Below, one piece after another: positions 11,365-15,875 of a DNA stretch of 32,578 bases (the first letter of the stretch is position 1; every line of letters begins with the position of its first letter). Position numbers and translations under genes: made by a program. The stretch covers positions 1-32,578 of the IMG/VR virus record IMGVR_UViG_3300030331_000786. One strand, given 5' to 3'. Under the pieces are notes generated by a model that was not told the origin of the DNA, searched no databases, and saw only the letters and a list, made by a program, of their open reading frames with translations. The stretch is from a virus.

Positions 11365-11575
11365 GGCGCAACGATTGTATCCATCGGGACGTTGCCAACC
11401 GACCATTTAGGGATGGGAGTCCCTTGGATTCGGGAGCGGCGATTTTGTCCATCGGGACGCCGCCGACCGATCATCGGGCAAGGAGTGCCGCCCTGGACGA
11501 AACAAGACGGCGATTTTGCTCACTGGGGCGCCGCCAACCAGCCAACAGGCGAGGGGATCGCCTTGAGCTAAGAAG
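11365..11575 (+). ncRNA. Three tandem copies of a two-hairpin unit, candidate structured RNA
   Basis: Units begin near 11368, 11436 and 11507 (68 and 71 nt apart, not multiples of three). Hairpin I has stems GCAACG/CGTTGC, GCGGCG/CGCCGC and CGGCG/CGCCG, so pairing is preserved while bases change. Each has a 6-nt bulge on the 5' side (ATTGTA, ATTTTG, ATTTTG), an inner TCC/GGA or CTC/GGG stem and a tetraloop. Hairpin II stems are AGGGA/TCCCT, GGCA/TGCC and AGGCGA/TCGCCT, with purine loops TGGGAG, AGGAG and GGGGA. The strand is inferred from the loops and the upstream operon. The 77-codon frame across it is judged spurious. Confidence 0.6.
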
Positions 11576-13663: not shown

Positions 13664-13733
13664 TTTGCCAGTGTTGGCACCTGAAAACCCCTGCGGCCGC
13701 ACCGGACAGGGGTTTTGGGTTTAGGTGGGTTTA
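13664..13733 (-). repeat. Intergenic cassette, copy 1: palindrome plus terminator
   Basis: A 70-bp block ending at the TAA of the 92-aa gene and homologous to 14274-14343. It holds the palindrome TGCCA-GTGT-TGGCA (13666-13679) and the terminator stem. The identical length and conserved ends, with changes mostly in loops or as compensated stem pairs, show duplication of an intergenic unit. Confidence 0.75.
13684..13716 (-). terminator. Intrinsic terminator after the 92-aa gene
   Basis: AAAACCCCTG (13684-13693) pairs with CAGGGGTTTT (13707-13716). The A and T flanks allow termination in both directions; on the minus strand it follows the gene ending at 13731. The counterpart at 14294 differs by compensatory CT/AG to GC/GC pairs. 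Confidence 0.75.
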
Positions 13734-14273: not shown

Positions 14274-14343
14274 TTTGCCACCATTGGCACCTAAAAACCC
14301 GCGCGGCATGATCCGGTGCGGGTTTTGGGTTTGGGTGGGTTTA
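14274..14343 (-). repeat. Intergenic cassette, copy 2: palindrome plus terminator
   Basis: Second copy of the 70-bp block, with palindrome TGCCA-CCAT-TGGCA (14276-14289), terminator stem, and conserved GGTTTTGGGTTT region ending on the TAA of the 67-aa gene. The palindromes lie just upstream (minus strand) of the next gene's ribosome binding site and may be operators. Confidence 0.75.
14294..14326 (-). terminator. Intrinsic terminator after the 67-aa gene
   Basis: AAAACCCGC (14294-14302) pairs with GCGGGTTTT (14318-14326). Same position and flanks as the hairpin at 13684 but with a different, compensated stem sequence. Confidence 0.7.
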
Positions 14344-14576: not shown

Positions 14577-14605
14577 AAAAAAGCCCTCGCCATGACGCGG
14601 AGGGC
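14577..14605 (-). terminator. Intrinsic terminator after the cysteine-peptidase-like gene
   Basis: On the minus strand GCCCT, bulged C and CGC pair with GCG and AGGGC, followed by six T residues (plus-strand A-run 14577-14582). It lies 21 nt after the stop at 14626, so it would end most transcripts of that gene. Confidence 0.8.
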
Positions 14606-14625: not shown

Positions 14626-15012
14626 TTAGGCGCGCATGTCAAAATAACCTTGTAGCTTTCTGCGCTGGGCGGTATCGCCGGTCCAATCTTGGACTGCGCC
14701 GTCAACAACTGCCAAAGCATGACCGCGCACCAATACATAATAACTCCCGCGCGGATGTGTCTTTACAAATCGGTTAATAGTCATTCCGTTACAATCGCTG
14801 GAAATTGTTTTTCCAATATTGCGTAGTGCTTTGCAGATTTGAAAAGTTGACATTCCGCATCTATCACGCCGCCCAAACTTCTTCATGTAACGGTGTGCTT
14901 TGCCAAATGACCAATCCATTGTGTTCGCCAATGCAATAACCGTACAGCATCCGTTCTCACGGTATCGGTTAATTTGTTCTTCGCATTGTCCCCATGTTTG
15001 TTGATGTTTCAT
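14626..15012 (-). CDS. Papain-fold cysteine peptidase-like protein
   Basis: 128 residues from the ATG at 15012, which has GGAG 9 nt upstream; ATGs at 15027 and 15051 have none and lie in the folded leader. Three elements appear in the order of a C39/papain-like triad: NGCCTVIALAN (C22 or C23), GSYYVLVRGHALAVVDGAVQ (H98) and the Asp of VQDW (D109). The Cys-containing helix start, the YYVLV strand and GHA-x4-DG loop are typical. A peptidase acting on host or phage proteins is inferred; activity could be lost. It stands directly behind the long structured leader and is followed by its own terminator. Confidence 0.55.
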   Translation of the reverse strand: MKHQQTWGQCEEQINRYRENGCCTVIALANTMDWSFGKAHRYMKKFGRRDRCGMSTFQICKALRNIGKTISSDCNGMTINRFVKTHPRGSYYVLVRGHALAVVDGAVQDWTGDTAQRRKLQGYFDMRA

Positions 15013-15028
15013 GTAGTTGTGCTCCATT

Positions 15029-15321
15029 GGTAACAACACTGAAGAACACACAAATGCCCTTTAGTGTTGCCACCAGTTACTCGCTAATAATGTGGCTTGC
15101 GCCAATGGCTCCGGATTGTCTGCCCATTGCCTACACCATTAGCTTTCGCATGGTAGCTTCTGCCAGTCTTCACGTCGGTGGATAACCTATTGCGCATGGT
15201 GGCCCATGTGATGCCGTCGGCGTCCGTTGACAACTGCCCCAAGTTATAACCGTCTAGGGAGACGTCGAACTTACAGTACTCGCGTTATCCTTTGGTAGGC
15301 TCACTACCTTTGGGCTTTCCC
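15029..15321 (-). ncRNA. Large structured leader RNA candidate
   Basis: On the minus strand nine or more helices tile about 290 nt. In 5' to 3' order: GGG/CCC (15312-15321); GGTAG/CTACC (15294-15308); a long-range stem GTTATCC/GGATAAC (15284-15290 with 15180-15186) enclosing a nested hairpin ACTG, AAGTT, CGTCT with their complements (15233-15277), GCC/GGC (15213-15221) and CATGG/CCATG (15195-15208); CTACCAT hairpin capped by GC-GAAA-GC (15131-15156); CAATGG/CCATTG (15103-15129); GGC-GCAA-GCC (15094-15103); and a final stem GTAAC-AACACT/AGTGTT-GTTAC (15030-15080). GNRA loops appear only on this strand. Could be a riboswitch, attenuator or free ncRNA. It matches no class I know. Confidence 0.6.
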
Positions 15322-15336
15322 TGTCACTTGCTAACC

Positions 15337-15366
15337 AATATACAGAAACACCTAAAGATTGTCCAA
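15337..15366 (-). promoter_or_regulatory. Sigma70-type promoter for the leader RNA and accessory block
   Basis: On the minus strand -35 TGGACA (15360-15365) and -10 TATATT (15337-15342) are separated by 17 bp, with TG directly before the -10. Predicted start is near 15330, just upstream of the first helix of the leader. It reads toward the accessory genes from 15012 down. Confidence 0.6.
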
Positions 15367-15468
15367 GAATATTAACTTCTAAAAAGTTGTCCTTCTTATT
15401 GCTTTTTGTTTGGGGTATTGGTTGTCTTTAGTGGGTGCCATATCGCCCCACACATTCCCAGTTCTGAA

Positions 15469-15636
15469 ACTTGCTTGTTGCCAACAAGTAAGTTACTTGT
15501 CGTGAACAAGTATCTGGCTAGTTAGTACTCACTAACATCGGGTTAGTTGGTTAGTGCTTACTAACATCCAGGTTGGTTAGTACTCACTAACAACTTACTT
15601 GTCGCAAGCAAGTATCTTACTTGTTCGGAACAAGTA
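15469..15636. promoter_or_regulatory. Symmetric array of seven palindromes (A-A-B-B-B-A-A)
   Basis: A sites: 15469-15493 (core CTTGTTGCCAACAAG), 15494-15512 (TACTTGT-n5-ACAAGTA), 15596-15614 (TACTTG..CAAGTA) and 15618-15636 (TACTTGTTC-G-GAACAAGTA). B sites: GTTAGT-n4-ACTAAC at 15521-15536, 15550-15565 and 15576-15591. A-site centres are 22 bp apart within each pair, two helical turns. The layout is nearly mirror-symmetric around the middle B site. Best read as binding sites for two dimeric regulators or a replication-origin complex. No regulator gene is recognised. Confidence 0.8.
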
Positions 15637-15875
15637 ACTTGGGCGGGGGCGGTGACAACTTTAAATTTATTATTATTGTAGCCCCCCAGCCACAAAAAAA
15701 GCCAAAATGGGGATATCTCAAGTGTCTGTTACCAAAAGAAACATTAAGTGTTACCGTGTTACCTTTGGTAACAAATATTTATTTTCAAAAAAGGGTTGTA
15801 GTACTTGAATATTAATATAGGATAGGGTGGGTAGGAGGGCTTAAATGGCCTTTTAATTTTTTAAGGAGAGCTAAA
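15637..15875 (+). promoter_or_regulatory. Leader of the rightward late block with GTTACC sites
   Basis: This 239-bp stretch holds no convincing gene. GTTACC occurs at 15728 and 15750, and as a perfect palindrome GTTACC-TTT-GGTAAC at 15758-15772, a third operator type. Downstream, TTGTAG (15796) and TAGGAT (15818) spaced 16 bp make only a weak promoter candidate. An AAGGAG ribosome binding site precedes the gene at 15876. The 64-codon open frame here has no start signals. Confidence 0.5.

Follow-up and report, generated by a model that had tools for sequence, protein, structure and literature searches.

A stretch of intricate folding at the head of a phage operon raises the question of whether it is a real RNA and, if so, what that RNA does. 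The stretch considered here lies in a 32.6-kb virus record, hereafter the window, whose plus strand encodes a terminase (Terminase_6) and a portal similar to that of SU10, and whose minus strand bears a block of leftward genes. A first-pass annotation had proposed a heavily folded leader of about 290 nt in front of this leftward block. The structured region is found on the minus strand where it had been placed and is slightly longer: positions ~15329-15029 encode a real structured RNA, the complete leader of a type here called A, of ~300 nt. Its extent and type were assigned by covariance model, homologue alignment and covariation; the covariance model matches the 5' domain at 15329-15236, and the 3' limit is the end of the final hairpin, P7, at 15029. 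That the fold exists is nearly certain. The RNA represents a new family of phage RNA whose function is hypothetical.

Homologues and RNA types

Homologues of the leader RNA are present in ~36 IMG/VR contigs besides the window. Searching with the protein of the downstream gene yielded three contigs in which the upstream sequence is conserved, and further homologues were collected with a DNA pattern of the conserved core, a protein profile search and additional patterns. Three architectural types can be distinguished. Type A RNAs resemble that of the window and span ~290-340 nt, type B RNAs are ~360 nt or more (L045, L046, L051, L117, L118, L131, L133, L134), and type C RNAs are ~450 nt and carry two copies of a core 13-mer (L008, L019, L039, L053, L059, L137, L139), their 5' end being mapped in L053 only. 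A covariance model built on the 5' domain of type A finds type B RNAs at E values of 1e-9 to 1e-12, with weaker scores for L117, L046 and L133 (0.001-0.025), and the type C RNA of L053 at 1e-6; these matches lie directly upstream of the gene. The other loci searched, including the remaining type C loci, gave no match to this model. Motif hits unaccompanied by the gene were taken as chance (L005, L007, L009, L011-L015, L018, L022, L023, L025, L027, L029-L031, L033, L035, L124, L132, L144-L150), and those that were scanned with the covariance model (R1) gave no match. The leader RNAs are a family of large (~290-450 nt), multiply pseudoknotted RNAs of uncultured tailed phages.

Comparison of the window with 4227 families of Rfam, among them riboswitches, introns, RNase P, ornate RNAs and self-cleaving ribozymes, gave no match at gathering score and only chance-level matches at lax thresholds, in agreement with the earlier statement that the region bears no known RNA signature. 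Likewise, there was no Rfam match in 13 loci, nearly all of them with the RNA, and a lax scan of further loci returned only a hammerhead in L133, outside the RNA, together with chance-level matches. ARAGORN reports 0 tRNA or tmRNA genes in the window, blastn finds nothing for types A, B and C among INPHARED phages and nothing for type A among PLSDB plasmids, and no RNA is annotated upstream of the PHROG 3754-like genes of four cultured phages (three Pseudomonas, one Tunturiibacter). The literature searched gives no description of the leader RNA, which may nonetheless be described elsewhere. The absence of an Rfam match and the covarying homologues in related phages bear out the suggestion of an undescribed structured leader or phage RNA.

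A coding explanation was also considered and rejected. By inspection, one long frame is open in L001 and L028 and is stopped by a TAG in the window; moreover, the indels that separate the homologues are not multiples of three. The region is non-coding.

Folding energy and covariation

Folding energy alone is weak evidence for the RNA of the window. The minus strand of 15013-15335 has a minimum free energy of -105.6 kcal/mol, compared with -94.8 on average for shuffled sequences; this is better than the mean but marginal (z -2.07; 4 of 100 shuffles do equally well). All 29 RNAs tested nevertheless have negative z scores, the means being -1.8 for type A, -2.2 for type B and -3.3 for type C.

The decisive and strong support comes from covariation, by which the helices and two pseudoknots are seen to be preserved by compensatory changes across the alignments. 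In the type A 5' domain (P2, P3 and PK1; 12 RNAs), 7 pairs are doubly changed, none of 500 shuffles reaches the score, and slid registers, used as a control, collapse. Full-length type A RNAs (n=9) have 5 doubly changed pairs, again with 0/500 shuffles scoring as high. Compensatory changes, which the first-pass annotation had named as a check, are present in related contigs. RNAalifold, run with no structure imposed, recovers P2, P3, P4 and P7 with 8 doubly changed pairs. The arms of P2, P3, PK1, PK2 and P6 are paired at 87-100%, compared with 49-71% for mismatched partners, the former figures being biased towards pairing since the arms were extracted and chosen by hand.

Architecture of the leader RNA

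The conserved architecture, as read from the aligned sequences, comprises hairpins P2, P3 and P4, a pseudoknot PK1, a second pseudoknot PK2 around an arm P6 that bears an invariant 13-mer, a probable third contact PK3, and the terminal hairpin P7. All coordinates below are on the minus strand. Hairpin P2 (GGUAG/CUACC; 15294-15308) covaries, with double changes at 4 of 5 positions across types A and B, and hairpin P3 (CGUC/GACG; 15251-15264) covaries as well. In PK1 (15238-15259) the P3 loop at 15259-15255 pairs with 15242-15238, and all 5 positions are doubly changed across types A and B; the helix is 3-4 bp long in the close relatives of the window and at most 5 bp elsewhere. Domain P4 (AGUU-GUC / GAC-N5-GACU; 15165-15235) encloses a hairpin at 15208-15195, and its closing pair shows a G-C to A-U double change.

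PK2 (15070-15156) joins CUACCA at 15156-15151 to UGGUGG at 15075-15070. Across types A and B, 5 of its 6 positions are doubly changed (CCGTAGC/GCTACGG, CCATAAC/GTTATGG, CTTTAGC/GCTAAGG), while within type A the changes are one-sided only. The arm P6 (UAAUGGUGU/ACAUUAUUA; 15085-15141), paired at 95% versus 71% for mismatched partners, presents the invariant 13-mer GGGCAGACAAUCC (15113-15125), which occurs once in the window. This 13-mer has zero mismatches in the motif-bearing RNAs, whose loci were fetched by protein search and not by the motif, and GGGCAGACAATCC is present with zero mismatches in every motif-carrying locus fetched by protein.

PK3 (15123-15269), a probable long-range contact and the least supported of the helices, emerged from the RNAalifold run. 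It pairs CC(G/A) before P3 with (C/U)GG of the 13-mer, in the window as UUCG (15269-15266) with UGGG (15126-15123); 69 of 69 pairs are kept in 23 sequences, with a shuffle p of ~0.03. A kissing interaction between the 13-mer loop and UUGUC/GUCUG segments was rejected by eye as inconsistent across sequences. The final hairpin, P7 (15029-15074), has 21 bp and ends 3 nt before the Shine-Dalgarno sequence at 15025-15022; over 15 RNAs, pairing is kept in 96.5% of cases across its 21 pairs, of which 7 are doubly changed.

The individual fold drawn from the single sequence was partly right. Its final bulged stem is correct and corresponds to P7, which is longer than had been stated. Two pseudoknots were missed, and the proposed long-range stem (GTTATCC/GGATAAC) is mostly specific to the window, where it pairs 7/7; elsewhere it pairs 4-6/7 with no double change. 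As a closing helix this 7-bp stem is unsupported beyond 4 bp, and of it only GGAU/AUCC may be real. The hairpin with a GCAA loop is confined to the sub-clade of the window, and the supposed GAAA hairpin has an invariant sequence (GCGAAAGC) but overlaps P5/PK2.

Promoter, first gene and linkage

The sigma70-type promoter reported directly upstream is indeed there, as TGGACA-17-TATATT at 15337-15365. It ends at 15337, and the RNA starts ~7 nt past the -10 box, at 15329. The same geometry, with a score of at least 8 of 12, occurs in 14 of 16 tabulated loci lacking an inserted 5' element (the exceptions being L020, which scores 6, and L002, which is mis-anchored), a score of 8 being reached by ~7% of random positions. 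The leader RNA is not followed by a terminator.

The RNA opens the leftward block, and the gene that it precedes (14626-15012) encodes a small papain/C39-like protein of PHROG 3754, whose function category is 'unknown function'. The protein model (pLDDT 86.7) best resembles C39/papain-type cysteine peptidases (Foldseek against ComA: probability 0.98, TM 0.55, E 0.03), and Cys, His and Asp are invariant in the PHROG 3754 protein. The RNA precedes a PHROG 3754 gene in all contigs whose length allows this to be seen, and in every complete locus the 13-mer lies 158-276 nt ahead of the catalytic-Cys motif. What had been called an accessory block is a leftward operon, ~10 kb long in the window and, judging from its gene content, probably early.

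The linkage to one gene does not extend to the type of RNA. On the protein tree the RNA types cross protein lineages, with six changes against a minimum of two; more specifically, L006 (type A) and L059 (type C) have nearly identical proteases. Because the RNA types do not track the protein lineages, they behave as interchangeable modules, and their exchange before near-identical proteases suggests a function common to the types and not tuned to the protein. This swapping, together with the position of the RNA, suggests that it leads the leftward operon and acts in cis. The leader RNA probably governs the switching-on of the first genes of the phage, its position pointing to control of the first step in the phage programme. 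Three architectures before near-identical genes offer a natural comparison for finding the functional core, and the strong covariation, the unchanging 13-mer and the full linkage to one gene make this RNA a clear target for RNA biochemistry.

Possible functions

We infer that the leader RNA acts in cis, either on its own transcript or on the polymerase that made that transcript. RNA-based antitermination or anti-pausing of the kind performed by put RNAs is judged the likeliest mechanism, although only tentatively. A folding-based scan finds three strong intrinsic-terminator-like hairpins in the operon of the window: one directly after gene 1 (14577-14605, position 14582), 38 nt before the next open reading frame; one before the third open reading frame (14293-14323, position 14297); and one further down the operon (13684-13716, position 13687). 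The three lie only 13-52 nt before the following open reading frames, which leaves little or no room for promoters, and the region as a whole has 6 such hairpins compared with 1-3 in dinucleotide shuffles. L001/L010 have one terminator-like hairpin right after gene 1. Read-through is essential in lambdoid early operons (PMC9378689), and the likeness of the terminators in the window to those operons makes RNA antitermination the leading idea. It would work as follows. The nascent leader RNA would fold on leaving the polymerase, the core formed by PK1, PK2 and PK3 would expose the arm with the invariant GGGCAGACAAUCC to the polymerase or a Nus-type host factor, and the polymerase so modified could then read through the long operon, including the terminators after genes 1 and 2 and further down. 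Consistent with this proposal are the conserved fold with its unvarying 13-mer, the promoter directly at the RNA 5' end, the lack of a terminator after the RNA, the place of the RNA at the head of an operon that contains three terminator-like hairpins, the exchange of types A, B and C before near-identical proteases, and the similar promoter-proximal position of HK022 put. However, the operons of L020, L021, L136 and L019 (11-12 kb, with the RNA) have no strong intergenic intrinsic terminators and thus no general intrinsic termination to overcome, and it is for this reason that confidence in antitermination is held below an even chance. In addition, the RNA is ~4 times the size of put and has pseudoknots, which put is not described as having, and antitermination does not require an invariable linkage to one gene. 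The full claim, that these RNAs form a family of machines of 290-450 nt that make host RNA polymerase termination-resistant with no dedicated phage protein, through an invariant 13-nt contact loop on a triple-pseudoknot scaffold, and that they are common among uncultured phages while no cultured example was found, is bolder and somewhat unlikely in its entirety.

A second reading makes the RNA a regulator of gene 1 itself, such as the possible riboswitch or attenuator suggested from the single sequence. Such a leader, binding a ligand or a protein, perhaps the encoded one, would set translation or early termination. The placement of the 13-mer before the catalytic-Cys motif in every complete locus fits this, as does P7 of type A, which finishes a few nucleotides before the ribosome-binding site; furthermore, GGUGGC in type A can pair in either P7 or PK2, a possible switch. 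Yet type B uses separate strands and has no P7/PK2 overlap, the Shine-Dalgarno sequence lies outside the conserved helices, no Rfam riboswitch matches, and the mixing of RNA types with protease lineages, exemplified by L006 and L059, does not suit a leader tuned to its gene. Regulation of gene 1 is judged rather unlikely, somewhat less probable than put-like antitermination. A ligand or protein partner, if there is one, would make this a new kind of regulatory RNA in phages. A lower probability still attaches to an RNA cut from the mRNA and acting in trans on host polymerase, ribosome or defence. The promoter defines its 5' end, a role that in L133 falls to a hammerhead ~10 nt upstream, and elaborate folds with unvarying loops are a usual trait of RNAs in functional ribonucleoproteins; however, the RNA has neither a terminator nor a 3' end of its own, always adjoins the start of the same gene, and was never found elsewhere. 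The same observations, a missing terminator and adjacency to one gene start in every complete case, disfavour the free-standing phage RNA that had been entertained.

Two further readings are improbable, and about equally so. A passive stabiliser or shield of the mRNA 5' end would account for a structure that begins near +1 with scarcely any single-stranded 5' tail, but it leaves unexplained why a 13-nt invariant motif and long-range contacts persist across large divergence. A new ribozyme, processing the leftward mRNA by self-cleavage or self-splicing, would suit the complex pseudoknotted fold, and in related loci hammerheads are found at similar places in the operon, some immediately ahead of PHROG 3754 genes; the leader RNA, however, lacks a known ribozyme core, an Rfam match and an evident conserved cleavage site. 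The group I intron version of this reading, including a circularly permuted one, fails: GGGCAGACAATCCGGAGCC and CCTAGACGG resembled Q/R elements, but there is no Rfam match and no P4-P6/P7-P8 geometry, and since PK2 encloses only P6, with P7 and then the gene start coming next, P4-P6/P8 would have no space.

Comparison with known systems

RNA-only antitermination is known mainly from HK022-type put RNAs. HK022 put, ~70 nt long with two stem-loops, is located a short way downstream of an early promoter; it functions without a dedicated phage protein and is effective at 10 kb (PMC9378689). Antiterminators of the put type suppress termination in cis via the zinc-binding domain of polymerase beta'. 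Like HK022 putL and putR, the leader RNA is found at a phage promoter, here one that is probably early, and stands first in a long operon that contains internal terminators, and under the hypothetical function proposed here it too would need no dedicated phage protein. Unlike put, it is 290-450 nt long and has pseudoknots, long-range contacts and an invariant 13-mer. Were RNA polymerase its target, antitermination by RNA alone would have a second solution, and a far more elaborate one.

The EAR element of Bacillus exopolysaccharide operons is another leader RNA proposed to act on polymerase in cis; it is ~120 nt long and belongs to other hosts, and the RNA of the window and its relatives have no Rfam match to it. 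GOLLD and ROOL RNAs are usually larger and are not leaders of one gene. They are described as large, conserved, structured RNAs, partly phage-linked, with function unknown (PMC12286853). The leader RNA resembles them in being large, conserved and structured, with no Rfam match to either. RAGATH-1 and type III hammerheads are self-cleaving RNAs of ~50-80 nt with a CUGANGA/GAAA core, which the RNA of the window lacks; a motif scan for the hammerhead core (CUGANGA, GAAA, three stems) found none in the window.

Neighbouring elements

Hammerhead cores were found by motif scan in L133, L117, L131, L051, L075, L077 and other loci. That of L133 (minus strand ~931-986) is a complete core (CUGAUGAG, CGAAAC, GUC) with a predicted cut ~10 nt upstream of the first conserved base of the type B RNA; its Rfam scores (Hammerhead_3 E 0.011, RAGATH-1 E 0.08) are below gathering. 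Several hammerheads per operon occur in L075, L077, L082, L084, L085 and L087, where the large RNA is absent, some of them immediately preceding the PHROG 3754 gene. In L117 (3939-3968) and 11 other type B loci, a conserved insert, GGCGACGGGGAGCCACAATCCCGCNAGGCGCAANCCTNTCAGAACT, at the 5' end of the RNA occupies the spot of the L133 hammerhead and is found nowhere else in the viral contigs searched. A known ribozyme was rejected for this insert, as a lax scan of L119 and L130 gave no Rfam match, and it is possibly a 5'-processing element of a new kind. Just upstream of position 2501 in L116 (Gemmatimonadota MAG CP070792), a degenerate hammerhead-like sequence and a masked stretch of N precede a PHROG 3754-like gene; this locus is possibly a prophage and a hint of the host.

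Three repeat elements were also observed in the window. A palindromic array (TACTTGTT..AACAAGTA, GTTAGTACTCACTAAC) at 15468-15640 lies in the divergent intergenic region, adjoins the promoter of the leader RNA and is operator-like. A 70-nt element is repeated at 13664-13733 and 14274-14343 with 77% identity, each copy containing a terminator hairpin and, ahead of the gene that follows, a short inverted repeat. Finally, three imperfect 47-nt direct repeats (CGGCGATTTTGTCCATCGGGACG...) are spaced 68-71 nt apart at 11369-11554.
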